Both the position numbers and the translations under genes were made by a program. From assembly GCF_021134715.1 (NCBI RefSeq), contig NC_060017.1:434001-498000 (forward strand): 64,000 nucleotides of DNA, read 5' to 3'. Shown piece after piece: positions 27,101 to 51,221 of this stretch. How positions within the stretch are numbered: position 1 is the stretch's first letter; each line of letters opens with the position of its first letter. This stretch comes from Daphnia pulex. Taxonomy: Eukaryota > Arthropoda > Branchiopoda > Diplostraca > Daphniidae. Under the pieces are notes generated by a model. The model worked only from the letters and a program-made list of their open reading frames with translations, ran no database searches and was not told where the DNA came from.

Positions 27101-27109
27101 AGATGGGGT

Positions 27110-27233
27110 CTGAGATTGGCACACATTTCGGCGGCACCCCAATAAAGCAAAGTGGGAAGCGGCTAGCGAGTTCTGTAAAGACAAGGGCTGGAAGTTCCAG
27201 ATAATGCATGAAGAACATTTAGGGATAAAATAA
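27110..27233 (+). pseudogene. T4-like phage head-completion (gp4) C-terminus
   Basis: The frame ending at the TAA of 27231-27233 reads HPNKAKWEAASEFCKDKGWK then FQIMHEEHLGIK. This is the typical C-terminal end of the T4-family gp4 head-completion protein (AKW.AA.EFCK.RGW.F....E..LGIK). The N-terminal 100 or more residues are missing and an upstream TGA interrupts. The stop overlaps the start of the next gene as TAATG, a prokaryote-type coupling. Confidence 0.5.
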
Positions 27234-27826
27234 TGGCAACGGTATTCGATGAGATTCTAACCAAAGGCGTTCGTTCAGGACAAGTACCTGCACGGGAGGC
27301 AACGGCTCGGGATTGGTATAGAGATACTGCAAAGGCATATGGCAGAATCAATGAGGGTAAGCTAATGAAAGGCGACCAAGATCGTCTTAATACTCGCCCT
27401 ATGGTAGGCCAAATGTATATGTACTTCTACGAGGCAAAGACTAAAGATACGTTACCATACTTCGATAGATTCCCGTTAGTGTTTCCGTTTCTCAAGGTCA
27501 AAGGTGGTTTCTACGGTCTTAACATGCACTACATCCCACTGCCGCTAAGAGCCAAGCTAATGGACGCTTTGTATCAAACAGCAAACAATACTAGGTACGA
27601 CGAAACGACTAAACTGAAACTAATAAGCTATAGTATTTTAGATGGGGAAGCTAAGTACAAAGAATTTAGACCCTGTGTCAAGCGATATCTTACCTCCCAA
27701 CTGAGAAGTCAGTTCATGTATATCTACCCATCAGAATGGGATATTGCATTATTCTTGCCCACTGAGAGATTCCAAGGCGCAACAAAATCAAAAGTCTGGT
27801 CAGACTCAAAGAAGAAAATAAGGTAA
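27233..27826 (+). CDS. Tailed-phage (T4-like) conserved protein, 197 aa
   Basis: An uninterrupted frame without introns: MATVFDEILTKGVRSGQVPA, then a core YFDRFPLVFPFLKVKGGFYG, NMHYIPLPLRAKLMDALYQ, FRPCVKRYLTSQLRSQFMYI and LFLPTERFQGATKSKVWSDS. I recognise it as a protein kept in the structural gene cluster of T4-like myoviruses of aquatic bacteria, between gp4 and the tail tube or baseplate genes. I cannot assign its exact name (DNA end protector is one possibility). It overlaps the gp4 stop (TAATG) and the next gene starts 3 bp after its stop, so the three form a phage-type operon. Nothing eukaryotic surrounds it. Confidence 0.6.
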   Translation: MATVFDEILTKGVRSGQVPAREATARDWYRDTAKAYGRINEGKLMKGDQDRLNTRPMVGQMYMYFYEAKTKDTLPYFDRFPLVFPFLKVKGGFYGLNMHYIPLPLRAKLMDALYQTANNTRYDETTKLKLISYSILDGEAKYKEFRPCVKRYLTSQLRSQFMYIYPSEWDIALFLPTERFQGATKSKVWSDSKKKIR

Positions 27827-27829
27827 CCC

Positions 27830-28220
27830 ATGTCTTTTAAAATCAGCAAATTTAGCTCTAAGATAAAAAAATACGGCCTAGCTAAGAGTAATCTATTCAT
27901 CGTAGAGATTGGTATACCCACTTCGATTAAAAATGAGCTTAGAGACATTCCGGTTGTAACCGACATACGGTTCTTCTGCCGTAGCGTAACACTGCCCGAG
28001 ATGGATTTAATTACCACAGATATTCAGCCCCAAGGCTTTGGCGCAATCGAGAGACGTCCTCAAGGTATGACTTTTCCTATTCTGCCTACGACATTCATGA
28101 TGGACAGCGAGTTCGGTGTAATGAAGTTCTTTCATAGATGGACACAGGCCATCATTAACTATGACAGCAGTTCCGGTATTCGTGGAGTAGTAAATAATGA
28201 ACTACCTTTCGAGATGGGTA
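27830..28220 (+). pseudogene. T4-like phage tail-tube/baseplate protein, N-terminal half
   Basis: Starts MSFKISKFSSKIKKYGLAKS and contains LFIVEIGIPTSIKNELRDIP, FFCRSVTLPEMDLITTDIQP and MTFPILPTTFMMDSEFGVMK, as in tail-tube or tube-initiator-like proteins of T4-family phages. The gene stops being phage-like at GVVNNELPFEMG. The last shared bases are GAGATGGGTA at 28211-28220, followed by four GGTACCAT-type repeats. The matching C-terminal half is at 51219-50834 on the other strand and begins with the same ten bases. Confidence 0.65.
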
Positions 28221-29276
28221 CCATTTGGTACCATTGGGTACCATATGGGTACCATTTGCGCAGGGGGGCCACATCATCAACACGACCTCATCGTGTAGTG
28301 TAACAGGATCAATACTACGTATACGGTACGACATATGAAAAGAATAAAGCTGAAAGTTGTTTGGAACTTGGAAGCGCTTATTAAGAAGTGAAGAACCCTA
28401 TTGCGTGTTTATGCGGTTGGCTAGAGTCGCGTAGCAATAATGAAGGTGAAACGGATAACAAGATATTTTTTAACGGCTTTGTCTCTACAACTATTATCTT
28501 ATACACTTGGGACGGAACGCATTTCTTCAGTTTTTGTGCATGTCGTAAGAAAAGAAATCCATTAATAAATTGGTAAACTGCCCTTCCAGTGTGGATGAAT
28601 ATTCCACTCGATTCCACTTCGTTCAAAATGTCAAAAAGATCGTTCATCACCTTCTTATATTTTGTACTATAAAGGAAGCTTCGCGCAAGAAAGCGGATTC
28701 ATTCTGTTTGGTACGAAATGGTTTGAATATTCCCGAATATTATTTTCCCAGGCCAACCATACATATGAGCTGACTTTTTTTTGTTGTTTAAGTATATACT
28801 CGTGTATACATATTTGTATAGAAGCAAACATACTGCCCATGGGACCCATAAACACACTGCCAACCGACACTATCACAGTAAAATATAGCACTGATGTTGA
28901 GATATCACTTGCCAGAGGTAGCTACCGTAGTTAAGTTTATTGCGTTTTCCCCATTATTATGCAAAAATCACTGAATCAAATGATGCCATCGAATTCATTA
29001 AATAATCAAGTTTTCCGGAGAAAGCATTTAATACAGGAAGCAAGTATTTCTGTATTTGGTATCGCTAGATTGAAAATTAATTTGTCCGTATTTTTCAAAG
29101 TGTTCTCGAATAAAATTGCGATATTGCCTATCTGCTTGAGTTGACCAGAGCCAGGGTAAGTTCACCCATACTCTGCCTTGTTAGACGACAGCCTAGCTAT
29201 TCAGTTTTTGTCCGCGGTCGTGAATTACGACCAATTGTGACATTAAGGCTAAATAAGAGAGAAAAGGGGGAATTCA
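28221..29276. other. Junction repeat and unassigned sequence
   Basis: 28217-28258 repeats GGTACCAT with small changes four times at the phage junction. Beyond it, open stretches on both strands (28381-28650 minus, 28959-29144 plus) have no recognisable family. A (GTATACA)-type stretch lies near 28795. Confidence 0.35.
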
Positions 29277-29434
29277 GGGGCTTATTTAACAAGTAAGTTA
29301 TACGAGCAATCGCGATTCCATAAGCATACACGGGAAATTTAGTTCGAACTGATTCCCGGTAGAGGGTTTTTCCCGTGTATGCTTATGGGAATCGCAATTG
29401 CTCGGATAACGGGATAACTTACTTGTTAAGCCCC
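29277..29434. repeat. 158-bp MITE-like hairpin
   Basis: GGGGCTTATTTAACAAGTAA at the left end pairs with TTACTTGTTAAGCCCC at the right. The inner arms (GCAATCGCGATTCC, CATAAGCATACACGGGAAA) pair with GGGAATCGCAATTGC and TTTCCCGTGTATGCTTATG. Confidence 0.75.
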
Positions 29435-29756
29435 AGTGCCCTCTGCCCAGTCTCAGGGAAACGAATGTTCACCTTCCTATGGATAAGTCATCTTCCGCGG
29501 ACGACCTGACCCCTACCGGCAAGCAGACGATTCCTCTCAGGCTTATGGAGGCATGGAGCCGATTGTTTTCTTTAGTCTGTGGCTCTGTGGGTCTGTGCAG
29601 GTGCAGTCCATGCACAAACATATACGTTTTGTTCTTTGTTGTTGATGTGATTTGACTTAATTTGGCATGCCTTCGTTTGTGTTGTAAGAGTATACAGCAT
29701 AAGTTGTGTTGGGAGAATGTGTTGAGCAGTCATTGGATCATTGCATCATGTACCAT

Positions 29757-30265
29757 GACCAAGTAAACTAAAAACCATACCTGAACGGCGACGTCCAAGC
29801 GTATCGTGTTGGGGGGGGGGGTTGTTTTCCAATTCCATGAAGGCTTCAATTTCTTGGCGATTTCTGACTAATTCTGTTCTTAAATTTTGTGTTTCTTCCG
29901 GAAGAGGAGCAGCAGTTAGACGAAACGTTGCACGGGGTACGGGCAGCCGAGATCGAAAAGAAAGCTGAGCAGCTTGCTGAACTGGCCCCGCAACATGTGC
30001 AATCGCTTGCCCAACATGCCCAACAGACGCTAAAGACCAATAAGGGCGTGGAATCACAAGGAAATTGACCAAGTAAACTAAAAACCATACCTGAACGGCG
30101 ACGTCCAAGCGTATCGTGTTGGGGGGTGGGGTTGTTTTCCAATTCCATGAAGGCTTCAATTTCTTGGCGATTTCTGACTAATTCTGTTCTTAAATTTTGT
30201 GTTTCTTCCGGAAGAGGAGCAGCAGTTAGACGAATCGTTGCACGAGGTACGGGCAGCCGAGATCG
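29757..30265 (-). repeat. Tandem copy (310-bp period) of a Gln/Glu-rich coding repeat
   Basis: The block starting GACCAAGTAAACTAAAAACC at 29757 restarts at 30067. On the minus strand it encodes a coiled-coil-like stretch (ETQNLRTELVRNRQEIEAFM) followed by a G/C homopolymer of variable length (11 G near 29811; interrupted in the second copy). An inverted copy is at 51222-51400. The family is unrecognised; a retrotransposon gag piece is one possibility. Confidence 0.6.
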
Positions 30266-31066
30266 TTATGGATCCTGGATTCACGTTCAGTGTCTGAACG
30301 AATGAGCTTGCGACCTTCTTTCAACAATCTAGATTGAGGATGAGTTATAAAAGTTGCCACGTCTCACCTAAAGACCTCTTTAAGAATAAGTATGTGGAAC
30401 ATCATTGGAACCAGCTTCATAGGTAGCGGCCTTATATAGCTGTAGACAGCCAGTCTCATTACTTCGCGCATCTTACAACTCACAACAACTTCTAAGATGA
30501 ACATCCGTCAGATTTACGTAAATATAATTCTACTATACATTCATAGCATTTCGATATTTATATTGAGATTTTCTTACTTTGTCTAGTTTTTTGTCTCCGT
30601 TGCGTTAGTCTTCCTAGTGGTGCATTCGACAACGCCAGTAAATAGTCAACAAGAGGCTTACGTCGATAAGTGGGAGCCCTTTGACATCCAAAATAGTCCA
30701 CATGTTGATCGCTTTGAATCAAACTACAACAAATTTGGTGCGTCTCCAGAATCTCAAGTTGGTACCATTCACGAAGTTTATTGCCCAGAGCCCAGCAGCC
30801 CACAAAATGGTCAAGTCGCACAAGCGATTTTACCGTGTTTGATAGCTCATCATCAGTTTTATCTTGGAAGGAACGTCGTGTTATATGCTATATTTTTTTT
30901 ATTGTTAATACTCCACTGCTAGCCTATTATAACTTGCTATGTTATTTCTGAGTATAAAAACGAAATTGTTGAAAGCGTTTTTGCTGTGTCTGACGGTTTC
31001 TGATAGTTATTTTTATTATGACAAATGTATCAACATTTTTTGGCTCAAGAAATAGAAACTTAGGAA

Positions 31067-31575
31067 TTAATTTCGTTGCTTTCTTTTGATATTTTTGTCA
31101 ACTGACAAGTGAGAAAGGGTGAAATTTACCAGACTTTCTCTTCGTCTTGGTCCACTTCCTCTAACTTTTCCATCGTAATTTTGATCAATTTCTTGCATAA
31201 AATTGGTAAAGATTCTCTTAAAAAGCTTCTGCAGGTTTTTTTTTAAGATTGCCTGAAAAAAAACGAAAAAAACACAATAATTAGAAAAACATTTATAGCA
31301 CAAATAATTTAAACATTACCTAAGATAAATTTCTCTAGCCAATCCAGCATATCCCAAGCGCAATCAAGCCATGCAATATCAAAGGGACAGCCATCATCAT
31401 TGGAAACATAATCAACTGTGTCTTCAAAATCTCCCATCCCTCCGCATAATTTTACTTTTTTGTTTAATCGTGAGGCAGACTTCACACAAACACCCACGAA
31501 ATTCCTGCACGGCATAAACAAAAAAACAGTTTGAGTTTGATAAAGTAGGTGCCGGTGGCCATGGCTTGTTGCCAC
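31067..31575 (-). pseudogene. Unrecognised gene fragment, paralogue of 51.8-52.2 kb
   Basis: Two exon-like pieces. 31575-31309 has FEDTVDYVSNDDGCPFDIAW then MLDWLEKFILG before a TTACCTAAG-type donor; 31303-31067 begins FFQAILKKNLQKLFKRIFTN. The first matches the plus-strand piece at about 51850-51985 (LEDTVDYFFDWPLALGCPLD, PEKFILG), so both come from one gene family. I do not recognise it. Confidence 0.4.
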
Positions 31576-31751
31576 TGGTTACAGCTTATGGGCCGTCTTA
31601 CACATCTTTGCTTCATTTTTTAAACACGAAAACAGTATATCCACTTTGGGTTAATTGTAAGTTGGTGAGATAATACATAACTCGGAATTTCATTTTTTTA
31701 GGACTTGTTGTTTAATTGGAAAGATTACGGGTATTCGATCGTGTTGCCAAA

Positions 31752-32135
31752 ACAGTACCGGTCATCGTCCAAGGTAGCAACAATCGCGTCTTAGAAGAGG
31801 CTGCGTGATCTCTTCAAGATGTTCTGTCTGGAAGTGATTCCTATGACGTTGGCCAAAAACGCAGATCTTATCCCTATCACAACCGTGACTGATTTGAGGA
31901 ACAAAGACGCCTGCGGGTTCAAGTCATCCGGTATTGACGGTCACATGGTATTATGGAATAATGATTCTTTTCCATTTAAATGCTTGAAAGATGTTAAATG
32001 TTTATGTTATTTAAGATGCTAATACTAACATGCTAGACGAAGGAGTTGTACAGCCTGTTCTATTGACCACCATTGCGATCACTTTGGCTTCGAAAACCAT
32101 CCGTTCCATTCTTAAGATCGACGACATCGTATGTT
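31752..32135 (+). pseudogene. CCT4 (TCP-1 delta) C-terminal fragment, copy A
   Basis: The segments read as the end of chaperonin subunit CCT4: [20 protein letters not shown] then a TGA stop, [20 protein letters not shown] with TDLRN, and after an intron-like gap [12 protein letters not shown] and [16 protein letters not shown]. In CCT4 these are the apical/intermediate end and the last equatorial helices of the ATP-driven folding ring. The nonsense codon, the missing start and the lost segment between LEEAA and LEVIP show a dead copy. It shares a layout with copy B at 40.5-41.1 kb. Confidence 0.68.
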
Positions 32136-32618
32136 TCGAGTGTAGAATGATTATGGCTGATCTGTAAAAACTATAATAATCTTTTGTTTTCATTGTTGTG
32201 TCAACTCTCTGTACTGAGGCGTGTTCTAGCTATAGTTTGACACCAACAAATCACCCGGCCTAATCTTGTTTTTTGATTTAGTATACCGCTCCCTTGTTCG
32301 CCGCTATTGTGTCTTCTTTAATATGAAGATGTGCTTGGTATACTCTTTTCTTCGAACTGGGGGATTTTAGCAGATTTCAGGGTGAGAAATCACTTCAATA
32401 AACCTCCCAAGAACATTGGCCACTTACATTACTAGTATGAACCCTAAAGGTCGATAAAAAATACCTTAAGAACTCGAGTTTTATTTAGTGACGAGGTCAA
32501 CAAATACGAAAAAATGACTGAAATTGGACCTAGGGTACCTTTGGGGAAGTGTAAAAAGCTCGCAAAAAAAAATTAGCTCTAATAAAGTGCTTATAAAAAT
32601 GAGAAAGGGGGGTGAGTG

Positions 32619-32828
32619 CTAATATTTATTGGTAACAAATGTTTTTTTCTTATATAACTTAGAAATGTCTTTTGTCCCTTTCTTGACAATATCGTAGTCA
32701 AGCAAATCAAATCTTTGACGCCCACGACCATGAAAGAATTTGAACGTAAGCGATCTGTCTTCACAATTTATTTTATCAATTTCCCTGAAAAATAAAATAT
32801 ATCTGCATAAATGACGAAATTTCCGCAC
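32619..32828 (-). pseudogene. SNF2 ATPase (TTF2/lodestar-like) exon fragment 1
   Basis: Reads LFFREIDKINCEDRSLTFKF then FHGRGRQRFDLLDYDIV before decaying. This is the region of SNF2-family ATPases between the Walker A and DEAH motifs (the W.EIEK....L....FHG.R....L..YDIV pattern) and is most like transcription termination factor 2/lodestar. It is a single exon with no flanking motifs in frame. Confidence 0.5.
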
Positions 32829-32929
32829 GGCATTTACACAAAAACAGTAAACCCACTTTGGGTTCTCAACTGGGTTCTCAGCACTTTATTTATCTTCAGT
32901 TGTAGTGCCCTCGGACAAAGTCCCCTATG

Positions 32930-34430
32930 GGCAAGCAAACCACAAACACTTGAAGAGTTTTGTTCACACAGCTTTCTTTCCAATCCAGGGACAAAAGCTA
33001 ATTCAGGATGAGCTTCCTTCTACAAAATCACTCTAAGTTTATTCAACAGGTGAATTTTGCTTCTGTAATTCTATTTACGATATATGAAGCTGGTTTTCAC
33101 TAGAAGATCTTTGTTCACACAGCTCACTTTCCAATCTTGGCACTGCAGCTGATTCAGAATAATGAGCTGCTTCCATCAACAGTTTCCTATAAACAAAATC
33201 ACAGCATTTATTCAACAGGTTATTTTTATCCTGTGATTCTACTAACAATATGTGAAAATTCTGGTTTTTAATAAAAAAATCCATGCTTTCCTTTTTCTGT
33301 GCAAGAAGTTATATTTAAGAAAATCTTCTTACGAGAAATAATGAAGAAGCTAGGCAACTATTTAATAAACTAAATGTTGAATGGTTAAAATTAGGAATTT
33401 TTTTCGATTCGAATCTCAAAATTCCAGTTTGGAAACAAGACAGTTCTAAATTTAAGGAAAACATTACAACGAATATACCATAAGCACTTGAGCAGCACTT
33501 ATTGCTACAATTGTCGATGTTTTGAATTTGTGTTTTGATGCAAGATTAAAAAACTTCCCAGTTATTGTAAGGTTCCAGAAATCTGTAATCACAATCATCA
33601 GAAATCAATATCGTAAGAAAATTTACAGGATCAAAACTAAATATTAATATGGAATACTGTAAGTACGATGATTCATATCATGACATTGATCTTCAGTTAT
33701 TTGGCTAAATAAGATTTTAGTGTTGAATGGAAAAGATAAATATAAATTTTTCGAAGATGTAAAAAGAGGCAATTTAAATTAATACTTTGTGGTTCTATGG
33801 GCCATCTAATGCTGGAAAGAGTTTGATTGCTAATAAGATTGTGCAATCAGCAAGATTTATTTTAATATTATGGACTTTGACGAAAGGACTTATTTTCCAT
33901 TAAAAACGCACCAGGCAAACTAGACATATTTATTAATGCACCTGATATTGGGGAACGAAGAACAGAATTAGTTAAAAATATTACCGAAGGACAAGATATA
34001 GCAATTACTGTGATAAATCAGAGAGAATTTACTTTACCACACCATAAGTTGTTTGTTCAAATAAGACGCTATACCTTTTTTGTATGCAAGAAGCATCAGC
34101 TATAATGAATAAATGTTACTTATATCTATACTTTTAAAACAAGTGACGAACTCATTGATTGTAAAAAGAAACTTCATTAACTACTTTGGTTGAGATTCTT
34201 TGAGAAAGAACCATTAGATTTAACGAAACAATTGTTAAACTCAGCAATTTTCCATAGAAATCTTAAAAGTAAAATAATGATAATTTGAATATTTTACTGT
34301 GAGCTAATTTGAAATTGACAAGTAAACCGTTTAATACTGTGCATTTATCTGTGAAACCATCATGTGAATTGTGTGAATTATTTGAGCAGATATATCATGT
34401 GGTTTTCCAACACATCTTAAAATTTTTTTA
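32930..34430 (+). pseudogene. Endogenous parvovirus (densovirus-like) NS1 remnant, copy A
   Basis: The central piece reads TLWFYGPSNAGKSLIANKIV at 33783-33843, the Walker A motif of the parvoviral superfamily-3 helicase in NS1, the replication initiator. About 100 bases later comes a frame with INAPDIGE/RRTEL-like sequence and then ITEGQDIAITVINQREFTLP, the conserved stretch before sensor motifs. Upstream (32930-33300) there are repeated SKVPYGQN-type units also found in copy B. Many stops and frameshifts split it, and the Walker B region is corrupted. The element is old and non-functional. Confidence 0.65.
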
Positions 34431-34469
34431 AAATAGAATATTCAGAATATTGACCAGCACCAGTTTATC

Positions 34470-36661
34470 CATTGAACCCTAATTTTGGAATAGTTCTTCA
34501 TACCATATCCACCATAAGAACACTGAACTGTTGTGTCATCCCATACCTCTTCTTGTCAACGTGGTGCTTTCATTAATCGTCTCAATATTCTGCGTTGATT
34601 GATGTACAGACATTTTTCAAAATGTTCTGTCCGTAATCTAGAGAATATTGTACTTTCATTGATTGAAAATCTATTGGTGCAGTATAATCCAACCGAATCC
34701 AACTCAAAAGTTCCTTGGACAACAAAATCAATTGGAGCAGACGAAGAAAAGGTTTTATTTCCTTCTCACAAAGGTATAGGGTGACCATGAATCATTGCAC
34801 AATGAGATATTTGTAACTGATTTTTGATTTATAGATAAATCAAACTATATGGACAATGGGAAATTTATGGGAAATTTTCTGTTAGTTTTTTTCATGGAAA
34901 CTGCCCTAATTTGTCTGTTTTCGCCTCAATTTTGAAGTATTGTCGGATAAATTAACCCCGAAAATGAAATGTTTGCTACTTGTTTTTAATTGTAAGTTTC
35001 ATTGAATCATTGAAACACAGTTCTTTTTGGGTATTTTTGACATAATAAGACCAATCCATCATAGGAAAGGTAAGTGGACCTTCAGATAAAGCGTGATCTT
35101 GCATAGATTCATAAAAACGGTCACCATTAAAATAATTACCATACCATCAATAACAGCCATACCAGTAGCTAAATTTTACCAATTAAGGGAAATTTTTTCT
35201 AGCAGAATTTACATTCTAAGCACTATATGCCTGTCCTACCCGTAATCTTCTTCAATCTTCTTCAGTTTAATAAAAAATTTAACAATAGTTTAATCTTCAG
35301 TTTCAATTTCAATTCCTTGATCTAAAGACGTAGCTGAATTATGAGCATCATAGATCCAATTATAGTATCTTTATCTACCGTAGATTTTTCACATTATTTT
35401 CCTATCTACATTATTTAGACCAGGTCCTTCGTCAGTAGATCCCAACATAATCTGGTTATTTTTTTAAATTTTATTTCTGTCTTGGTGCACGAATTTTAAT
35501 ACTATACAGCAAATAAATTTATATTTATTCCATGAAATGTTATCTTAATCAAATCTTGCTTTGTTGTCTACACACATTGCATAAAAACAAATTTAACTGA
35601 TCTAATTGATTGCAGCCTGCGTCAACATTGGAGTCTATAACACCTATTTTTTTGTCCAGTTTCCTTCAATTACAAAATTTTCATAAGCTTTCTTGAGAGA
35701 AATTAAAGATTTTGGTACCTAAATCCATTAAAACAGAACCAAATAGTTTCATTTCTTTTGTAGATTTCAAAGTTGCAGTTGGTTGAGTAGTTTTTGCAGC
35801 AGCAGGTGCTTCATTTGTCTTTGCATGCAATTGTAATTGATATCTAGGTGTACATCTTTGGCACCAGCAGAGTAGCCACTCCTCGAACATGTCTTGCTGT
35901 CTCTGGACTTTCAGGACGAATAACTTCTTTGTCTGAACTCTAAACCTCTCATAACTTCATCTGGATCTACGTTTTCTATATATTCTTGTAATCTTAGTTT
36001 CTTTTCTTCGTATTCTTCTTCAGTGCCATCTGTTCTAACATGTTTTTCAACTTGTCTGCCAGGTTCTAATAATGGTTGACTTGCTAAAAGTTTTTGGGTG
36101 CAGTTTCTGTTTCTTCCGGATTTTTTTAAGTTTCGTATATCTTGGACGGCTTGGAATAGGATAATCCAATTGTCTCGATAGGTCTTCTTATGTTGACCAA
36201 TACGAATAAATAGGTTTCCAAGATATACCAATAATTTTATATTCACGAGATTCATAGCTTTTATGAATAGCATATAGGGAACATCAGCTTTGGCCAATGA
36301 TGAAAACATAAGTTTATTTGGATTTTGACTCAAAGACCACAGCCTATGTGGTATTATAGAATCATATACGAAAAAATGGGCTAGATTTTGCTATCTTCTC
36401 CATTCATAATTCATAATAAATGTGTCTGCAGATTGTATGTATTGGAACATGAACATTCCAGATACCCATTTTTCTATTCTAGTTTGACTTTCGTAATTTT
36501 TTAAATCCAGAAAATCCTAAACGCCTTACATCATAGTTTATATTTGCTTGATTATCCCTCCACGATTTTACATCATCAAACGTATCTAATGTGTCATGAA
36601 AAGTCATATTTTCTTCGTAGTTTCTATTTTTCCGAATTGTGAAAAAGAATCTATCTATCAA
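34470..36661 (-). pseudogene. Parvovirus-like capsid (VP) remnant in antisense, copy A
   Basis: Downstream of and opposite to the NS1 remnant. The part at about 35130-35060 encodes QDHALSEGPLTFPMMDWSYY, shared with copy B at 43300-43240, and 34788-34582 has a further short frame. Open stretches at 36333-35911, 35890-35681 and 36661-36479 may be other VP or unrelated minus-strand frames. Opposed NS and VP genes are the arrangement of ambisense densoviruses. The VP assignment rests on position and layout more than on motif. Confidence 0.4.
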
Positions 36662-36699
36662 CCATATTATTTAAAGAAATCAAGGGTTATTTTTCGTGT

Positions 36700-40403: not shown

Positions 40404-40464
40404 ACTTCCATATTTTTTAGGACTAGTTGTTATAATTTGACAAATTACGGGTATTCAATATGTT

Positions 40465-41105
40465 GGCAAAACAGTATTAGTCATCGTCCGAGGTAGCAAG
40501 AAGCTCGTCTTGGAAGAGACTGCGCGATCTTTTCATGATGTTCTTTGTGTTTTCCATTGCATGGTAAAAAAGATGTATTTTCAGTAAATTAAAAAAAAAT
40601 TATGTCGAAAAAAACGTCCTGCTTTTGATAAACTGTAATTTTATCATTGCTGTGATGGTGGAGCTCCAGAGACAAAACTTGCTTATCAGCTTATCCAATA
40701 CGCACAGAGGTGGTTGAAACTTATTGCCTTCGGAAATTAACAAATTTTGGATTACTGTGTCGACACAAAACAAAGGTTTTCCGGTTTTAATGTGTTTGCC
40801 GAATCTTTGGAAGAGATTCCTATGACTTTGGCAGAAAAAACGCAGGTCCTACGCCACCGTGATTGATTTGAGGAACAAACACGCCTGCGGGTTCAAGTAA
40901 TCCGGTATAAACGTTCGCAAGGTATTAAGGAAAAATTAATGTTTCCATTGAAAAGCTTGAAAGATGTTAAATGTTTATGTTATTTAGGATGCTAATTCTA
41001 ACATGTTGGACGAAGGAGTTTCTCAGCCTATTCTAGCGAACACCAGTGCGATTACTTGGCTTACAAAACCGTCCGTTCCATTCTTAAGATTGACGACATT
41101 GTTTG
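40465..41105 (+). pseudogene. CCT4 (TCP-1 delta) C-terminal fragment, copy B
   Basis: Better preserved than copy A at the start: [36 protein letters not shown], then GGAPETKLAYQLIQYAQR after a gap, then LEEIPMTLAEK and LRHRD with a stop, and a final [13 protein letters not shown] end in a shifted frame. The same host gene piece and order as at 31.75 kb shows that the whole unit was duplicated. Confidence 0.68.
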
Positions 41106-41422
41106 TTCCGAGTGTAGAATGATTATAGCTGTCTATAGTTTGACACCAACGAATCACCCTGCCTAAGCTTGTTTTTTTGCTTTAGTAAACCGCTCTCTTG
41201 TTCGCCGCTATTGTGTCTTCTTTAATACAGGAATCCTCTCACGCTTAAGATGTTGCAAAAAATGAAGGTGTGCTTGGTATTCTCTTTTATTTGAACTGGC
41301 GGATTTAGCAGATTTCAGGGTGAGAAATCACCCCAATAATCCTCCCAAGAACATGGCAACTTCTATTACTTCTATGAACCCTAAAGGTAGATAAAAAATT
41401 CCCTAAGAACTCGAGTTTCCAT

Positions 41423-41800
41423 TTAGTGATGAAGTAAACAAATACGAAAAATGTTCGAAATTGGACCGATGGTATCTCTGGGGAAGTGTAAAAAGCTCAA
41501 CAAAAAAAAATTTTTGACTCTCAATAAAGTTCTTATAAAAAATGAGAAAGGGGGGTGAGTGCTAATATTTATTGGTAACATTTTTAATCTGATATGATTC
41601 TTATATGACTTAGAAATTTCTTTTGATCCTGAAAACATCGTAGTTAAGTAAATCAAATCTTTGACGCCCCCGACCAAGAAAGCATTTGAACTTAAGTTAT
41701 CTGTCTTCATAAATTCTTTTATCAATTTTCCTGAAAAATAAAATATTTCTGCATAAATGACGAAATTTTCGGAAGGCATTAACAAATAACAGTATACCCG
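41423..41800 (-). pseudogene. SNF2 ATPase (TTF2/lodestar-like) fragment 3
   Basis: Encodes MPSENFVIYAEIFYFSGKLI, then KEFMKTDNLSSNAFLVGGVK and DLIYLT, which parallels the first exon of fragment 2 and the region of fragment 1. It lies between CCT4 copy B and NS1 copy B, exactly as fragment 1 does in copy A. Confidence 0.45.
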
Positions 41801-41859
41801 TTTGGGGTTCTCCCAATTGGGTTCTCAGCACATCCCAAATTAAGTAATTTTTCTTCAGT

Positions 41860-42780
41860 TGTAGTGCCCTCGGACAAAGTCCCCTATGGGCAAGCACACC
41901 ACAAACTCTTGAAGAATTTTGTTAACACAGCTAACTTTCCGATCCAGGGACAAAAGCTAATTCAGAATGAGCTTCCTTCGTCAAAAGTTCCCTATGGACA
42001 AAATCACTATCAGTTTATTCAACAGGTGAATTTTGATTCTGTAATTATATTTACGGTATGTGAAGCTGGTTTTCAAGATCTTTGTTCACACAGCTCACTC
42101 TCCAATCTTGGCACTGCAGCTGATTCAAAATAATGAGCTGCTTCCATCGAAAGTTCCTTATGGACAAAATTACTGCATTTATTCAACATCAGGTTATTTT
42201 TTATTCTGTAATCTGCTAACAATATGTGAAAATTCTGGTTTTTAACAAGCAAATCCATGCTTTCCTTTTCTGTGAAAGAAGTTATATTTAAGAAAGAAAT
42301 ATTATTTCGGGAAATAATAAAGAAGCTAGACAACTATTTAGTAAACTAAATATGGAATGGTTAAAATTAGGAATTTGTTTCGATTCTAATCTCAAAATTC
42401 CAATTTGGAAAACAAGAAAGTTCTAAACGTTAGGAAAACATTACAACGAATTCACCATAAGCACTTGAGCAGCACTACTTACTACAATTGATGATGTTGA
42501 ATTTGTGTTTTGATTTCAGGTATTTGGCTAAATAAGTTTTTAGTGCTGAATGGAAAAGAAAAATATACATTTTTCGCAGATTTAAAAGCAATAATTAATG
42601 TGATAAATCCGAGAGGATTTACTTCAAGAAGGGAAAGGGAATTGTTTTCCATGAATGATAATTTGAATATTTTATCATTAGCTTATTTGGAATCGACAAT
42701 TAAACCATTTAACAAGCGATCTCCTACTCAAGCGGACCGAAATTCCCCCTTTCTGGTGGAGGTACTTTTCGGATCGTAAT
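41860..42780 (+). pseudogene. Parvovirus-like NS1 remnant, copy B (helicase core deleted)
   Basis: Contains repeated units with SKVPYGQNHYQFIQQ and LSNLGTAADSK (three partial repeats of about 140-150 bp), then the downstream stretch VINPRGFTSRR that aligns with VINQREFTLP of copy A. The stretch between, which carries the Walker A motif in copy A, is missing, so this copy has an internal deletion of roughly 300 bp. Confidence 0.55.
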
Positions 42781-43114
42781 CCGGAAAAGGACTCTATTGC
42801 TCTATTGAACCATAACTATGGAATAGTTCTTCATACCATATCCACAAAAAAAAAACTGGACTGGGTCTGTTGTGTCATTCCATACCTCTTCTTAATAACG
42901 TGGCGCTTTCATTGATTGAAAATCTTTTGGTGCGGTATAATCCAAATCAAAAGTTCCTTTGATAACCAAATCAATTTGATATTTCCTTCATACATTTTGG
43001 AAAGGGAGAACATGAATAATTGCACAATGAGATATTTGCAACTGCTTTTTTACTTGTAGATAAATCCCTTTTGTATGGACAATGGGAAATATAAGGAAAA
43101 TTTTCCGTTACTTT

Positions 43115-43372
43115 TCATGAAAACTGCTCTAATTTTTCTGTTTTCGCTCCAATTTTTACGCATTGTCGTATAGTGTTTGCTACTTGTTGTGAATTGTAAG
43201 TTTCATCTGCACCTTTACCACACAATAAATAATTGAAACACAGTTCTTTTGGGGGATTTCTGACATAATAAGACCAATCCATCATAGGAAAGGTAAGTGG
43301 ACCTTCAGATAAAGCGTGATCTTGCATAGATTCATACGTCACCATTGTAAAAAGTACCATCGTTTGAATCAA
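43115..43372 (-). pseudogene. Parvovirus-like capsid remnant, copy B
   Basis: An 85-codon frame with ESMQDHALSEGPLTFPMMDW, SYYVRNPPKELCFNYLLC and GADETYNSQQVANTIRQ. It aligns with the minus-strand stretch at 35.0-35.13 kb, and both lie downstream of and opposite to the NS1 remnants. It is longer without stops than copy A. The structural-protein role is inferred from layout. Confidence 0.42.
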
Positions 43373-43399
43373 ACAAAAAAAATAATTCTAGATTGTAGA

Positions 43400-45380
43400 G
43401 GAGATAATGACGGATGGCAACGTCAATGTTTAATTTGATTTAAGTTGTCAACGTGGTAATTGATGGAAATGCGATGCCTTTTCGTTTTAAATTTTATTTC
43501 CTGATAGGTTGTTCTGCCGCCATTTATACAAGGCCGACGAATCACTGGAGGTGTGAGCCCAGTATGAAGAAGGCGATGCCACGATCCTACGCGAAGCAGA
43601 AGCGACGAAGGTTCAACGAAAGAAGCTTTACGCAAATAAAAAGAGAAAGGCGGAAGCGAAGATAAGCCTCGAGTAAGATACGCGGAAAAAGAAGCGAGAG
43701 ACTAGCGGAGACCAGCGCGAAGCGTTCGAAGCAAAAATTGAAGGGTTGAAACTTCGCCGCTGGACCACGCTGGACTTCCAGTTTAACACGGTAGCACCGA
43801 GTACGAATCCGTCTCTCACACCATTAGGATACTGCTAAATCTGAAACAGCTGCTGTGCCAGAATCTGAAAATAAAGCTCTGCGATCAAAATCCTTTCTTG
43901 CAGACGTAAATCAGCTAGGATCCGAAGAATTGTAAAACTTCTTGTTAAGAGATTATTTTATTATTCTTCTATAGCTAATTCAGAGTGCAGAGATCCCTAA
44001 GCTGAACATTCCATTAGTCACCCATCAAACCCTTGTCATGAGATGCAATTATTTTCTCTCCATTCATTGCTATAAAAGTAGAAATGTAAAAAGCGTGTAA
44101 AATTTATGCATTAAAAATCTTACAGTTCGTTTAATTGTTGATTGCAGTACTGCACGTTTAAATAATATAAATTTTTGAAATGAAATATATTATATGAAAT
44201 CATTGAAGTCTTCTACCATGATAAAACGATAAAATCGCAGATAAAGACCAAGGATAAGAAACCGACCACAGTCTTCTTCTATGATAAATGCTGGGTCGCG
44301 TCCAAATTAGAAAAATATAGGGTGGTTAGCTTCGAGGGTAGGTTATGTACCATATAGGAAAAGGGGAAGGAACAAAGAAATGACAGGTTTGTCAATTCTG
44401 ATTTTCTCTGCTTTTAGCACAAGCTGCTAAGTTCTCTTAACTATGCGGCTCAAGAATTTTAAAGTCAGCCAATGAAACATACTGAAGTCGTGGGAACTAA
44501 CTAACTCAGCTTTCTTAACATGCAAAAAAGATTACCCTAACTATTTTCTACTTTGGACGCGACCCTGATTTAGGTATACTACAACTGAAGATAAATTTGT
44601 TGATTTTGGATGTGAAATTTCCAGTTCAGAGAACCCAGAGCCGGATATTCTGTAGGGGAGATAGGTTAAGGTAGACGTATCAACCATTATCATCTTAGTT
44701 TTGGGGACTTTTTCATCTATTTCCGTCATCGTCGTTTTCTTTACTTTTTTGTATAGACGTAAATTGGCTAGGATCAGAAGAAATCGTACAAATTCCAGTT
44801 AAGAGCTTTTAAAGCTGCGTATAGAGATAACTTCATTCACATCGTCTTCGTCATCCTCCTCTGCCTCCCATCATTAGACGGAATTTCTATATAGAAGAAG
44901 ATAACGGATTTCACGTTGGGGCGTTCAGAAATGTAATAACGTACGTAATGTATAATGTATAAATCAATAATGTAATAGCTTTCAATTAGCAACTGGGAAA
45001 AATTCCTTGGAAAGATCCTTTGTCAGAAGTATATTAGAAAACACGCTACTTTTGTACGTAAATAAGGAATTTGCACTTCAACTGTTAATTTGTATGACAG
45101 TTACCTATCATTTAAAAAGTATATTTTAAAATAGGTACCCCAATATTTTACATAACAATAACCCACTTAAAGAGTTTAAAGTTAAATCACACCAAAAACT
45201 AGAAGAAAAATTTGTATGTGCACGTTAACCTTACAAATGTGTGATTATAAGCGATTTCTCATCAATGAACAAGGTAAAAAACTGCTCTACTAAAACTGAT
45301 AAATAATATATATAACTGTAGTGGCGTGGTGGTATCGCATTTAAAGAGTCACTCTTAATTGCCAGCCAGATGAACCTTGA
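43400..45380. other. Decayed repeats, including N-terminal pieces of the SNF2-like gene
   Basis: No intact gene. 43906-43960 (AGACGTAAATCAGCTAGGAT) and 44750-44935 (ACGTAAATTGGCTAGGATCA, CATCGTCTTCGTCATCCTCC) resemble each other and the stretch at 46840-47090, so three partial copies of one sequence are spread over 3 kb. Confidence 0.4.
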
Positions 45381-45784
45381 AAATCCCCATTGGCTTTATC
45401 TCAAAAATTTGTTTCATTTCGGTTATGACTTGGATGAAAGTAACCCTGGCAATAGTGCAACTTTCATCAACACTTGCTAATCCTAGAACTAACGATGGAG
45501 TTCAACCCACAAATGTCAATAATTTAATTTTTTCCAGTGCACTCTTCCCAACATGTCAAGCTTCTTCATCAGCATACTACCTGATCTGCAGGATTACAGA
45601 CAGAGAAGAACTCTCCTATGCTAATTTATTCCAGCCCACAAAATTCATCGGAACCATTGCAAAGTTTTTGCCAGAACCAGCAATGATGTCTCCGATCGAC
45701 CAGAAGGATTTTTGCAAGGAGTGTGATAACTTAGCGGAATTGGTGTTGTCTTTCGTGATTATTTTGTAGTCCATTTCCCCTTGG

Positions 45785-46257
45785 TTGAACAGTCAAGAGA
45801 AGGAGCAGTTGAAAAAATATTACTCAAATTATATCAGAGACTTGTTTCCAGGACGCACGAACACCGTTCTACACGCAGCTGCTCAGAATAGAATGATGAC
45901 TGGCTTCAAACGATTCTTTACAAGTCTGAAGGACATTAAGTTGATCCTTAAACTTAGAGCTGATCCCAACGCCATCGACGAGGACTGCCGAACCCCGCCT
46001 CACATTTTGGCCCAAATCCATTACACTTGTTTGGTTGAAGAAGTCCATTTATTCAAGTATCTGCTGAAAGCAGGCAGTAATCTTCACATTGCAGATGGCA
46101 ACGGCGACACAGTCCTGAATGTCTTAAAGAGCAGATGCATTGCTCACCCATATTTTAAATCACTGGCCAATGTTGTGTTTCCTCTTTGTTGCCTTTGTAC
46201 TCAAGTAATCCTGCATGGAATTCCATTCGATGTAGAACAACTTCCCCTTCGTTTCTA
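45785..46257 (+). pseudogene. Fem-1-like ankyrin-repeat protein, C-terminal part
   Basis: A 157-codon frame with ankyrin repeats: NTVLHAAAQNRMM, LILKLRADPNAIDEDCRTPP with HILAQ, and FKYLLKAGSNLHIADGNGDT with VLNVLKSRC. The end is PLCCLCTQVILHGIPFDVEQ, similar to the C-terminal LxCLAARxIxxxGIPY end of Fem-1 family substrate receptors of CUL2 ubiquitin ligases. The N-terminal ankyrin block is not present; the open stretch 45377-45769 has no clear homology. It is probably a partial copy. Confidence 0.42.
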
Positions 46258-46839
46258 GATATATTTTTCCCGCACTGAAGGTAAATGAAGTAAACAAAAA
46301 TATTATGGTTTAATTAATTTAATTCGTTTTTTTTTTAATTTGGATCCAAACGAATTCCCTCAGATGAATTATGGTTATGGATATCGCTTTCGTTTCTGGG
46401 TCGTTAAATTTAATCCGAGCTTCGCTCACGAATGTTTCTGTATTCAATCTTTTTCGTTTTTTTCGCATTATTGCGTATAAGTTTGAGTTTTCTCGTTGAT
46501 ATATTGTTGTTGTTTTTTTAATTCGGCACTTCTGGTGATTGTGGTGAATGTGTCCACAAGGAACTGTTGTCGGAGGGCGTTAGTGAGGAATATGTTGATT
46601 TGGAAAGTAGGAGTTCTTTCGAAGAATTTTGCTGTGAAGAATATTGAAATAAAACAACCAGTGAAGAAGATTATTCTGTCGAGTCTAACATTGGTGCCTG
46701 TGATCTGGCTGATGGGATAGTTACGTCCCAAAACCCGGATGTTTTATTGTTGGAGTTAAATACAGAAGGGGTTATAGCGGTAAACATCATCTACGTTTTG
46801 GGGTCTGTTCCATTACTTTCATCGTCATTTTCTTTACTA

Positions 46840-48210
46840 GCTAGGATTCGAAGAGTCGAACAACTTCCAGTTAGTAGGTTCCGAAGCTCCTTATGGAGAG
46901 ATTGCCTCATTGTCTTCGTAGTCCTTGTCCAGTTCGTCTTCGTCGTCCTCGTCCAGTTCGTCTTCGTCGTCCAGTTCGTCTTCGTCGTCCAGTTCGTCTT
47001 CGTCCTCCTCCTCTGCCTCTTCATCCGTCTGACGAGGATTTCTATGAAGAAAATTATGGATTTCACGTGGAGGCATTCATAAATGTTTTAGCTCGATCAC
47101 CATTGGTCACCGAAATTGAAGCAACTCCACCCAATCTGGCCAATCCTCTCTTACCACATAAGAGGTGGTGTTTAAGGTCTTTATTGTGGCGTGAGTCAGA
47201 GGATCCTGCCGGTGAGTTTGTTTTATTTCTTGTTTATCAAAAAGTTTCATTTAAATCTGTTTTTGTTTGTAGGCGGATTATTTGCCTACCAATGTTTAAA
47301 CAAAGAGGAATGCATCGCATCCCTCATACTACATCACAAGCATTTATGTATTCCAACCTATCCATGGGAAGAATTTTTTACTTCGGCGACCTTAACTGTT
47401 TGCTCTGGAAAACCCGGTAAGTGGTTCGCACTGTTTCTGTTTTCCCCCAAAAAGTATATATCATGAGTGCCTTTCTTTTGTGTGTGTGTGTTTTTTTTTT
47501 GGGGGGGGGGGGAGGGGTATTTTTAGGGCCGTTTAACCTAAACAATTTTTAAGCCTGAAAGAATTTCTTCATCTATCAATATGCGTTTTATTTTCCGGGG
47601 AAAATGAAGAACATGATCAAACAAGTTTGCAAGATAGGATCACTTAAGTTGTTACGCTTCGACGGTCCCATGCGTGCGGGATTTCATTTGCCTAATTACG
47701 ATGTCGTAATCGCAACGTATAAGTTAATAATTTCCTATATGTGTCTTTCTTTCTGAATTAACATTTTATATTTCTTTACTAAAAGAGGGTTTGAGAAGAA
47801 GCTGCTCTGTTTAGACCATGATCTAAACTGTTTCAAACAAAATTTTCCCGGATAATTTTGGATGATGCATTCGCCATCAAGGATCCAAACTCAAATTTAT
47901 CAAGATATCTGCAGGCTATGTAGCGACAGGCGTTGGGCAATTACACCAACTCCAGTTCCAGATTGATATTTGTTTCCTTACCACCCTTTTTTGCGAGCAG
48001 CGGCTGCTCGTGGTTAAAGAGGGCTGCTCAGCAGCAGTTCTTTTTGGAATTCTACATGTGTTTTATCCACAAAATGTATCGCTAGTTCAATTCTTTTTCA
48101 GATTTGGAACTATTGGGTGGACGACGCGGATGGTGATAGACTTCGGGTGGTTCTAAAAGAAACCCTTCCAATAAGTCGGGCTGCAATTCGTTCTAACCAT
48201 TTGAATTTAT
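46840..48210 (+). pseudogene. SNF2 ATPase (TTF2/lodestar-like) fragment 4, longest copy
   Basis: Pieces in order: 47030-47210, with an acidic run then PLLPHKRWCLRSLLWRESED (the HQ-type entry of the helicase domain) and PA; 47270-47416, GGLFAYQCLNKEECIASLIL (Walker A position, but GKT is lost) and TLTVCSGKPG; about 47640-47735, LKLLRFDGPMRAGFHLPNYD then VVIATYKL; 47850-47905, the RIILDDAFAIKDPNS-like motif II; then the capsid-unrelated end at 48.2 kb. The order matches the N-terminal lobe of TTF2/lodestar, a DNA-dependent ATPase that removes RNA polymerase II. Key catalytic residues are gone. Phage-like DNA begins right after it. Confidence 0.6.
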
Positions 48211-49600
48211 TTGTTCCCAACAACCCCTTGGCATGATGCAATTATTTCCTCGATTAATTTTTCGTTACTAGAAAATCTTCTACTATGGTCAAATGGCAAC
48301 TCCCATTGTGTACAAGAAGAAGCCTTTCTCTTTTTTTGGCTCTTAAAAGAACCGAGTGGGCCAAGATCCAGGTGGGCCAAGATCAGAGTGGGTACGGCAC
48401 CACTGACTGTTCCGAGGGCTACACCAATCTCTCTCTTAATCTCGTCCTCTGGTTCACCATTGGCAATCATCATAACTGGCTTAATCAGTGCAGGAATCGC
48501 CGCGGCCGCCGGTCCGGCAAACCTAAGAAACCTAGCATACTTTGCAAATTTGCCGGCATCACGTTGCTTAAGGTCTTCTACGATATCAGCGATGCTCTGA
48601 GGACCAGTGAGAGAGCCCGCCTTACCGTCAGAAGGTACTTTTACTCCAGAAGGTAAAGGGCTGGATGGTGCGACACCAGGTTGCAATCCTCCTGGAGGTG
48701 TAAACTGACCAGGCTTATAAGTGGGAGGGGTCGTCTTTGTTCCCGGCTTTTGTGGTCCGCCTGGTGCTGGTGCTCCTGGTGCTGGTGCTCCTGGTGTTGT
48801 TGGTGTTGTTGGTCCGCCTATCAGTTTTTCCAGGGCCGCGGCAAGGGCTGCGGCCCCCATGGTAGCGATCACGACACTAAGTTTTTTACTAAAGGCCATT
48901 AGTAAAAATCTTACTCCTGCGCCAATGAAGGCTTCTCAGTTATTCCAGAATTCAGGATCATCGTCGATACTCTTCATCATACCGCCGATAATGTTATTCT
49001 GGTTCGCATCCATCACCTTGCCTAAATGAGAACCCACCCCGGCTAATAGACCTGCGAGGCCTCCCCATTAACCGAATAGTAGTCGATCCCAAATACCCCA
49101 TGTTACACCTTTCACGGTCTTTGCGACTTCTGCAATTTGTTCTGCCGTCTTTTCGTCTGCGACCATTCGCTTGAGTGATTCTTCTGTTGCACCCTTAACC
49201 AACAATCCTATGATGGGAGCTAGAATTGCAGGTAGTGCCGCTTTCATAAGTCCAGCTGTTAATGCCGTCAGTCCTCCTGTGCCTAGTACAGCCGCTAGTA
49301 GAGAGGCAATACCGAAATCTCCACTTCCTTTTTCTTTTTCTCTTTCTTACTAGACGTTTCTGTTTCTTTTGGAGTAGTGGGCACATCTTCGTTAGCGACA
49401 ATATCACTCTGTCTGCGGGCTTCAGTCTTCTTGGCCATCTCCTTAGTGAACTGAAATTGATTAGCCTGAAGCGATTGCATAGACTTAAAGAATCCAGTCT
49501 GTGCAATAAATTGTTTCTCAATGGACAAGAATACCTGCTCCAGTTTAGGATTGTCAACTAGTGCTTCCTCTGCATTAACTGTAGCGATATTCTCTGCCAT
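48207..49600 (-). pseudogene. T4-like phage structural gene, broken by frameshift and two stops
   Basis: One long phage frame appears split. It starts MAENIATVNAEEALVDNPKL at 49600, runs through a Lys-rich stretch (TSSKKEKKKKEVE), then needs a frameshift near 49320 to enter GIASLLAAVLGTGGLTALTA. It meets TAA near 49068 (DRLLFG*WGG) and TGA near 48938 (PEFWNN*EAF), then continues with [21 protein letters not shown] Pro-rich linker ([14 protein letters not shown]) and a hydrophobic end (FAGPAAAAIPALIKPVMMIA) follow, to 48207. Gly/Ala-rich membrane-like stretches with a Pro linker are typical of structural or tail-lysis proteins next to baseplate genes in aquatic myoviruses. The exact role is unknown. 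Confidence 0.55.
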
Positions 49601-49614
49601 TTTATTCTACCTTA

Positions 49615-49945
49615 TTACCCGTTGTTATTAGTGAAAGCTTCTTTAGCATAGAAGACATCAACGATAGCGGCAACAGATACAAAGTATGTTGGTGCCATAT
49701 TACCTAAGATTTCAGCCGCTGATGCCAAGCCTAGCCATGTTGCTAGTACTACTGCAAACGGATACAGTAACAGGATACAGTAACAGGGCAAACCATGCCA
49801 TGTTACGCTGTGCATCTGACTTCTTATCTTCATTCTCTAATCGAACTAGCTTCCGGTCCATATCAAATTCCTCATCGGTTACTATTCCGTCACCATTATT
49901 ATCATACTTCGTATACTTGCTGTTAGCTTCTAGTGTTTTTGCCAT
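49615..49945 (-). pseudogene. T4-like phage EF-hand/holin-like protein, frameshifted
   Basis: Starts MAKTLEANSKYTKYDNNGDG with an EF-hand loop (DNNGDGIVTDEE), then a charged helix and a membrane segment beginning MAWFALLLYP. A small duplication (GGATACAGTAAC twice near 49757-49782) shifts the frame. The other frame gives the rest: VVLATWLGLASAAEILGNMA with PTYFVSVAAIV, a second membrane segment. This small EF-hand plus two-helix protein is common in marine and freshwater T4-like phages, where a holin-like role is suspected. Confidence 0.55.
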
Positions 49946-50114
49946 TTTAGGTCCTTTATTGATTTGCTTTTTTATTATTTAAATATTATATTAACATATC
50001 AACATACACATCACGTTCGTATGGTATAAGACTTTTCATTCACTGAGTATTTATGATGTTGAGCCAAAGATAATATAGTTTTATAGTATACTCCTAAGCT
50101 ATTATGACTCAACG

Positions 50115-50809
50115 TCAGATAAAAAAAGTTTCCATGCCCTCCAGAATCATGGTCTTTTCATTTCCATCTGCATTGCCATACTTAACTTCGTATCTAAGGA
50201 CTGGAATAGTCTCGAAGAATGTCTTGAGGTCTTGAATGACTTTGCCTGGAAAAGATTCGATAAATGCCTTAATATCTTCCTTAGTGGAGTCTTCAAATCT
50301 ATTTAAGTATCTACCACACAATCGATACAGGCAATCATAATATCAAATAGAGTATTAACCTCATTGCCCTTATAGTTTTTAAATATAGATACTTCATCTA
50401 GTGTAGGATACCGCATAATCAAACGCATATCTTCACTTACGTTAATCTCTTTTGAGTGCCTCTCGTCAGAAGTCAATTTAATATCGTCAATATTTAACTC
50501 AATCTCTACTGTCTTCTCAGTATCTGGATTAGTGATATTAAACGTAATCATGTTATTCACGGACTTAGCACGAAGCTGAAGCATTAGGTATTCCATATCA
50601 AACATCGGTAGTGTTTCTACGTCTACATCATATACACAGTTTGTAATGATCTGACGAATAGCTAAAAGTGTTTGGTCAATATAATTTGCCTCTTGTGCAA
50701 TAAGAAGAATCTTCTCTTCTTTCGCGGTAAAGGGTCTAAACTTTTCTTTCTTTCCTGTTGAGAACAGAGTAGTCTCAAATAAGGGCAATTCAATTTTTTG
50801 CAGTGCCAT
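50115..50809 (-). pseudogene. T4-like phage baseplate hub protein (gp26-like), frameshifted
   Basis: MALQKIELPLFETTLFSTGK, then FRPFTAKEEKILLIAQEANY, LPMFDMEYLMLQLRAKSVNN and MRYPTLDEVSIFKNY are hallmarks of the T4-family baseplate protein (gp26-like; Pfam T4_baseplate type). The frame breaks at IACIDCV near 50320. The neighbouring frame carries the expected end FEDSTKEDIKAFIESFPGKV then IQDLKTFFETIPVLRYEV. A one-base change explains the break. The start lies 25 bp after the end of the tail-tube-like half gene, the usual phage spacing. Confidence 0.68.
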
Positions 50810-50833
50810 TTCATTCTCCTATATTTAAAAAAA

Positions 50834-51219
50834 TCATTTAAATGAATTTACGATTGTCGATACATTAGTTACTTGGTTAATTGCATCTTGGATGTTTCTT
50901 GGGCGACTGATGCCCTTGATAGCTTGTGCAACAGTTTTGACCGAAGAGAACCATGATAATAGTCCATTCGCTCCTAGTCCTCCCAAGCCCTGAACAACAG
51001 GCGTTTTAGCGCCAGTGACTTTCATTGTGTCATACGTGAAGCCCACGGGTAGCACCATAACGTCAGAGTGGCTTTCCCAGTCTTCGGCAACGTTACCGAC
51101 GTTTACGGGACACACGCCGCTGAAGTTGTATTCATAGATAGAGTTTTTACCGCTACCGCCGCCATATGAATACACTGTAACCTTCATGGTAGTCGCATAC
51201 TCGTTCTTATACCCATCTC
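50834..51219 (-). pseudogene. T4-like phage tail-tube/baseplate protein, C-terminal half
   Basis: From GAGATGGGTA at 51219-51210 the minus strand reads YKNEYATTMKVTVYSYGGGS, then YEYNFSGVCPVNVGNVAEDW and MKVTGAKTPVVQGLGG, ending VSTIVNSFK. It is the natural continuation of the N-terminal half at 27830-28220, since the last shared bases are identical. The 30 residues before it in the same frame belong to the adjacent Gln-rich repeat, not to the phage. Confidence 0.65.
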
Positions 51220-51221
51220 CT

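Follow-up and report, generated by a model that had tools for sequence, protein, structure and literature searches.

We analyzed a 64,000-nucleotide stretch of the Daphnia pulex genome (the window) that carries DNA of a T4-like bacteriophage. The window spans positions 434001-498000 of contig NC_060017.1 (C1), within a searched genome of 133,188,837 bases in 13 sequences. The phage DNA lies in two halves, window 27133-28220 on the plus strand and 51219-48393 on the minus strand, which join into a segment of 3905 bp (~3.9 kb, with 10 shared bases counted once). This segment, hereafter segment A, comprises the end of gp4, gp2, a tail tube gene, gp26, a gene for a small EF-hand-like protein, and a tape-measure gene. 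A second T4-like stretch, segment B, is found at C1:1.174-1.197 Mb, ~0.7 Mb from segment A on the same 8.3-Mb chromosome. Judged from the assembly sequence alone, this phage DNA was very probably inserted into the animal chromosome.

To assign gene families, the same 10 translated pieces of segment A were searched against PHROGs and Pfam. The gp4 end, gp2, both tail tube halves, and gp26 matched known families. These results bear out an earlier interpretation of the window made without database searches (the sequence-only reading), which had placed phage genes on both sides. Its tail tube and gp26 labels stood, with the addition that gp26 is broken by a frameshift; its unnamed 197-residue protein proved to be gp2, and its structural protein was tape-measure-like. 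For gp2, the DNA end protector, 1940 phage records matched, the best being Sinorhizobium phage phiM12 (53.6% identity), while identity to uncultured proteins reached 88%. Metagenomes contained 3948 proteins related to gp2 at E <= 1e-3, and 65 viral loci. The best listed of the 595 records matching gp26 were cyanophages and marine phages (about 40-42%). The EF-hand itself was a weak Pfam match (E 0.08), and neither the EF-hand-like protein nor the pieces of the last gene had a PHROGs or Pfam family match below E 0.02. Despite these weak family matches, both genes aligned to a collinear phage contig. Phage homology in the first half of segment A covered 27141-28219.

Comparison with 69 phage loci (L009 and L054-L121) was used to reconstruct the order of the pieces. 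All 69 loci contained gp2, 68 the first tail tube half, 65 the gp4 end, 63 the first part of gp26, and 48 the second tail tube half, with pieces of the last gene present in 4 to 9. In four of these loci, which represent two IMG/VR contigs (L078/L119 and L079/L120), all 12 translated pieces of segment A followed a single order and orientation along 3.9 kb. Within L078, the two tail tube halves (residues 1-130 and 130-254) abut at positions 6991/6989. As all 12 pieces were collinear and the tail tube halves met, window 27133-28220 and 51219-48393 therefore constitute one phage segment. This agrees with the sequence-only reading, which had predicted a collinear segment of about 4 kb once the intervening block was inverted.

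Gene order in both segments was that of a T4-type structural cluster. Segment A was collinear with L078 and phiM12 (Emdodecavirus), sharing with phiM12 and its uncultured IMG/VR relatives the order gp4-gp2-tail tube-gp26-...-tape measure; in phiM12 itself the order is gp4, gp2, tail tube gp19.2, gp26, two small genes, and a tape-measure-like gene. Segment B was collinear with phiM12 and with IMG/VR contigs L139 and L134, the likeness being the order gp18-gp19-gp20-gp23-gp3-uvsY-uvsW-gp47. We also searched the open reading frames of phiM12 and ten viral loci against 59 records (362,588 bases in all) made up of the window and 58 host loci, with many of the records overlapping. Matches were obtained in 11 records, all representing segment A or B.

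Table 1. Positions of the phage genes, host flanks, and junction features (window coordinates unless prefixed with C1)
Feature	Position	Strand	Evidence or remark
Left host flank	25649..27132	+	Equals C1:135137-136582
Segment A, first half (late gp4 to mid tail tube gene)	27133..28220	+	Homology with the phage-free copy stops at C1:136582, which sets the left edge
gp4 (head completion), C-terminal 30 codons and stop	27141..27233	+	phrog_218 (head closure), E 9e-9; 67% to residues 125-154 of L078 gp4
gp2, DNA end protector, 197 aa, open	27233..27826	+	phrog_429, E 9e-55
Tail tube protein, residues 1-130	27830..28220	+	phrog_45 positions 74-188, E 3e-20; 70% to L078 tail tube residues 1-130
GAGATGGGTA copy 1, cut end	28211..28220	+	
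Junction filler, 10-bp tandem repeat TGGGTACCAT x 4.1	28215..28256	+	Begins within the phage end
Right host flank	41459..48392	-	Equals C1:136582-143544 reversed; with the left flank forms the empty site
Segment A, second half (remaining tail tube to mid tape-measure gene)	48393..51219	-	Phage-free copy and L078 homology
Tape-measure-like gene, N-terminal two thirds	48393..49600	-	One frameshift; in-frame stops TAA ~49069 and TGA ~48937
Small EF-hand-like gene, frameshifted	49615..49945	-	Two frames match one L078 phage protein
gp26 baseplate hub gene, one frameshift near 50320	50115..50809	-	PF12322 (E 1e-35) in two frames, positions 4-152 and 159-218
Tail tube protein, residues 130-254 and stop	50834..51219	-	phrog_45 positions 193-260, E 4.5e-10; 69% to L078 residues 130-254
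GAGATGGGTA copy 2, cut end	51210..51219	-	51217-51219 (CTC on +) common with the host sequence beyond
regA, without a stop	C1:1174033-1174398		Family search
T4 portal and capsid genes, with stops	C1:1186654-1189483		Whole-genome family search
gp14, two stops	C1:1196561-1196944		Family search

The insertion site of segment A was identified from a phage-free copy of the same host region, located 0.3 Mb away at C1:117-146 kb. The outer flanks of segment A meet in this copy at C1:136582 with a 1-bp overlap, where the left flank ends ...CACATTTCGGC and the right flank begins CCCACTCGG.... Relatives of parts of window 4.0-27.1 kb are found in the same order at C1:117-136.6 kb, with gaps, notably at 19.6-25.6 kb. 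Reading the window in reverse from 48392 to 41459 extends these relatives to C1:143544, followed, with gaps, by window 32288 to 31155. As the flanks are contiguous in the phage-free copy, it therefore reveals both the exact insertion point and the order to be expected prior to the inversion. The comparison also corrected the outer edges of segment A, which the sequence-only reading had set at ~27110 and ~48210, to 27133 and 48393, since 48207-48392 is host DNA. The local search described above found no match between the phage reading frames and the phage-free copy. Even if the copy at C1:117-146 kb were a misplaced second haplotype instead of a duplication, it would remain an empty allele.

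No target duplication was found at the outer junctions of segment A, where the overlap was 1 bp only, and no integrase family was among the PHROGs and Pfam matches of its 10 pieces. The lack of both fits end joining. Prophage-style site-specific integration and transposition were rejected, given the absence of an integrase among the matches and of end repeats. We likewise rejected the idea that segment A was copied from a different phage insert in the nucleus, as DNA searches found no second copy of the phage parts among the 40 candidates scored of 79 for query 26600-29800 and the 40 scored of 58 for query 47400-52800.

The cut through the tail tube gene carries its own signature. The 10-mer GAGATGGGTA occurs exactly twice in the window, once at each cut end and in opposite orientations, compared with 0.07 occurrences expected and none of 100 shuffles containing two. 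An exact-match search and the alignment to L078 thereby upheld the earlier observation that the gene was cut in two with the same 10 bp at both ends. The first cut end leads through a TGGGTACCAT filler into host sequence that is also present at C1:1470310. The continuation of the host sequence past 51217 is visible in two host paralogues at window 29.8-30.3 kb. Window 29755-30265 and 51217-51541 are related host copies with a 310-bp tandem unit and form an inverted pair flanking the rearranged block.

An inverted duplication accompanied by microhomology and filler is the expected trace of a staggered break that has been rejoined. GAGATGGGTA provides the short inverted duplication at both breakpoints that a staggered-break inversion requires. 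Our data suggest that the block between the two halves was probably inverted after the insertion, because the halves are collinear, the phage-free copy preserves the earlier order, and the 10-mer is shared. Because the former neighborhood at the other end of the inversion was not recovered, a clean inversion may be too simple a description of the event.

Segment B contains, in phage order, regA, gp47, uvsW, uvsY, gp3, gp23, gp20, gp19, gp18, and gp14. The eight genes from gp47 to gp18 were read on the minus strand of C1:1183001-1193000 in the order of phiM12. Hallmark families were matched by gp20 (PF07230, E 4e-148), gp23 (PF07068, E 5e-60), regA (PF01818, E 4e-36), and gp14 (PF11649, E 5e-21). 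These four families were found nowhere else in the genome and in 0 of 14 control genomes. The gp20 of segment B showed up to 85% identity to uncultured relatives. Collinearity with L139 and L134 was interrupted by deletions of about 2.3-2.8 kb and about 0.4 kb, the larger of which falls where phiM12 has gp21, gp22, and the start of gp23. Stops were present in the gp20, gp23, and gp14 matches. If contiguous, segment B would span at least 22.9 kb. Relatives of both segments co-occur in metagenome samples (e.g. 3300026130, 3300007623, and 3300039180). In contrast to the genomes of T4-like myophages, the animal chromosome carries fragments only, altered by frameshifts, stops, deletions, an inversion, and a transposon, and no complete functional phage genome was found.

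The transposon is represented by a host repeat that starts at C1:1191605, inside gp18 of segment B. Along 917 bp this repeat was 99% identical to C9:5524032-5524948, and C7 and C10 contained additional matches. Its terminal 31-mer was found at 13 places on C1, C7, C9, and C10 (<=3 mismatches), whereas the reversed control was found at none. Some copies occur as facing pairs (C9 5522506/5524948 and C7 4918885/4924147), as in terminal inverted repeats. An element of a host family within phage DNA is strong evidence that segment B resides in the nuclear genome. No host mobile element was seen within segment A.

Segment A has accumulated three frameshifts and two in-frame stops (gp26, one frameshift; the EF-hand-like gene, one frameshift; the tape-measure gene, one frameshift and two stops). 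The frameshift in the EF-hand-like gene coincides with a 13-bp tandem duplication at 49760-49787. With mutation rates taken from the literature (D. pulex, 2.3-4.5e-9 per site per generation; D. obtusa, 3.34e-10 for indels) and an assumed share of mutations giving stops and frameshifts, the five disabling changes suggest an age of some 3 million generations, within a range of 0.9-8.2 million. An upper limit of about 6-13 million generations comes from the divergence of the flanks near the site (left, 79 of 1415 positions; first kilobase on the right, 48 of 909), and the divergence of the whole right flank (224 of 6840) would correspond to 4-7 million generations. The two approaches give compatible ages, both of them rough.

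Several further features characterize the host DNA around the site. The segmental duplication relating window 4.0-27.1 and 31.2-48.4 kb to C1:117-146 kb is gapped, and divergence in its right part varies from 1.2 to 5.5% per full kilobase. This patchiness suggests gene conversion between the copies. Window 32.3-41.4 kb is an apparent extra block relative to C1:117-146 kb. A multi-copy repeat at 26600-27077 stops ~55 bp short of the phage insertion; among the 40 candidates scored, it had 31 near-full-length relatives (72-84%) on ten chromosomes. Farther away, a degenerate tandem array occupies window 12.4-13.2 kb; it has strong GC skew, its two strands both carry long open frames, and it has a relative at C1:127.2-128.5 kb.

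We propose that linear DNA of a T4-like phage, a lytic-type virus with a contractile tail, was captured by end joining in a germ-line chromosome roughly 1-8 million generations ago and then decayed. Segment A would have been joined at 27132/27133 and 48393/48392 without target duplication, and segment B captured in the same event or in another. One staggered break in the tail tube gene of segment A and one in host DNA would later have allowed the block between them to be rejoined in reverse. Such rejoining would duplicate the 10-bp overhang so that each end keeps a copy, and would account for the microhomology of 3 bp at one inner junction and the repeat filler at the second. For the phage genes we see no obvious function in the host, and they appear to be decaying as neutral DNA; a host transposon has landed in segment B. 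Entry was probably through phage or infected bacteria in the gut of this filter feeder.

Some observations weigh against this model. The gp4 end also passed the Pfam cut-off for TnsA-like N (PF08722, E 4.5e-6). We took it for gp4 rather than TnsA because it aligned to residues 125-154 of phage gp4, and we read the PF08722 match as likely reflecting the nuclease-like fold of gp4 itself and no transposon gene. The far end of the transposon in segment B was not found within C1:1193900-1194500 or by a search of C1 with the terminal sequence (<=3 mismatches). Segment B was read over C1:1183001-1193000, C1:1193900-1194500, and the overlapping records L122-L126, and its contiguity to regA and gp14 comes from family hits. 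At the inner junctions, paralogues of the host sides at 28255+ and 51217+ run into different sequence (C1:1470310 and window 29.9-30.2 kb, respectively); DNA searches found no paralogue spanning the inner inversion junction, and the host junction that preceded the inversion was not recovered. Finally, gp2 and the regA match carry no disabling change. At 83 columns conserved in >=98% of its 120 nearest relatives, gp2 showed 0 deviations (the relatives themselves had a median of 0 and a maximum of 5). Neutral divergence of 1% would predict ~1.8 deviations (P(0)=0.16), and divergence of 2.8% would predict 5.2 (P=0.006). The insertion is thus young or, less likely, gp2 is constrained. Domestication, in which the animal retains gp2 or the tail tube for its own use, is the reading that an open and unaltered gp2 would favor. 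However, the adjacent genes are broken and youth accounts for the state of gp2 equally well, and we consider domestication very unlikely.

The lack of evidence that the host sequences at the inner junctions were once adjacent would also be expected if a genuine phage fragment had been split by complex repair, with two pieces inserted together or separately in a chromothripsis-like event at 27-52 kb. The filler repeats at one junction, the abundance of duplications in the region, and the multi-copy repeat near the insertion point in the same direction. In contrast, the order of the phage-free copy (left flank, then 48392 to 41459 in reverse, then 32288 to 31155 with gaps) is that obtained by undoing one inversion, and the overlap between the two tail tube halves where they were cut is exactly 10 bp; we regard complex repair as unlikely. 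A chimeric contig, in which the assembler joined phage reads from the gut or culture to host contigs, was the other of two readings offered from sequence only. Phages of this type are common in metagenomes, and the window by itself cannot rule out such a join. However, a false join would not hit both sides of a site that is contiguous in the paralogue, nor would it break a single gene so that identical 10-bp stretches stand at both cut ends, 23 kb apart and in opposite orientations. The frameshifts, in-frame stops, deletion of ~2.3-2.8 kb, and host transposon end are also unlike a contaminating phage. Given the empty site, together with the decay and the transposon end nested in phage DNA, we rejected a chimeric assembly as highly improbable and favored the insertion. 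Compatible with end-joining capture is a tentative extension, in which segments A and B are the survivors of one near-whole T4-like genome (well over 100 kb) that entered C1 once, passing from gut to germ line with no endosymbiont, and was broken up in the nucleus by inversion, deletion, and transposons. Both segments are T4-like, lie 0.7 Mb apart on one chromosome, and have relatives sharing metagenome samples. On the other hand, the empty site of segment A is discrete, and the DNA flanking it on either side is ordinary host sequence. Family searches for gp8, gp32, and gp5-OB gave no match in the genome; as 0 of 14 control genomes matched either, this does not establish their absence. We consider such a single capture less likely than not.

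Nuclear copies of mitochondrial DNA (NUMTs) and Wolbachia inserts are known examples of long linear foreign DNA captured by end joining without target duplication, followed by neutral decay. The phage DNA described here appears to follow the same pattern of capture and decay, with the difference that the donor is a phage and no resident endosymbiont or organelle is implied. Among the titles and abstract openings listed from the open-licence PubMed Central (PMC) literature, none reported T4-like phage DNA within the nuclear genome of an animal. Phage-associated genes (APSE) have been described in the nuclear genomes of aphids, drosophilids, and gall midges (PMC8455502, in the part available). 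Those cases resemble ours in that phage-carried genes reside in arthropod nuclear DNA. As far as the available part describes them, they concern single genes linked to symbiont phages, whereas here several kilobases of lytic-type structural and replication genes are decaying. Arthropod chimeric genes with horizontally acquired parts, including very young transfers in D. pulex and D. pulicaria, have also been reported (PMC13389597, in the part available). These are fusions with host genes, and the available main text has no word beginning with "phage".

Our results indicate that DNA of a lytic-type bacterial virus can reach an animal nuclear genome. At least two long T4-like stretches lie in one animal chromosome, compared with the single symbiont-phage genes in the available part of the earlier report. 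Because the empty site of one of them is exact to the sequence, the assembly itself can answer the usual objection of contamination. Phage-like genes need checking before they are removed from animal assemblies as contaminants. The site, its phage-free partner, and the decay are all datable, offering a concrete test of the route by which phage DNA enters the germ line, the mode of its joining, and the pace of its loss. A single near-whole capture, if true, would offer a natural and datable example of lytic phage DNA passing directly into an animal chromosome.

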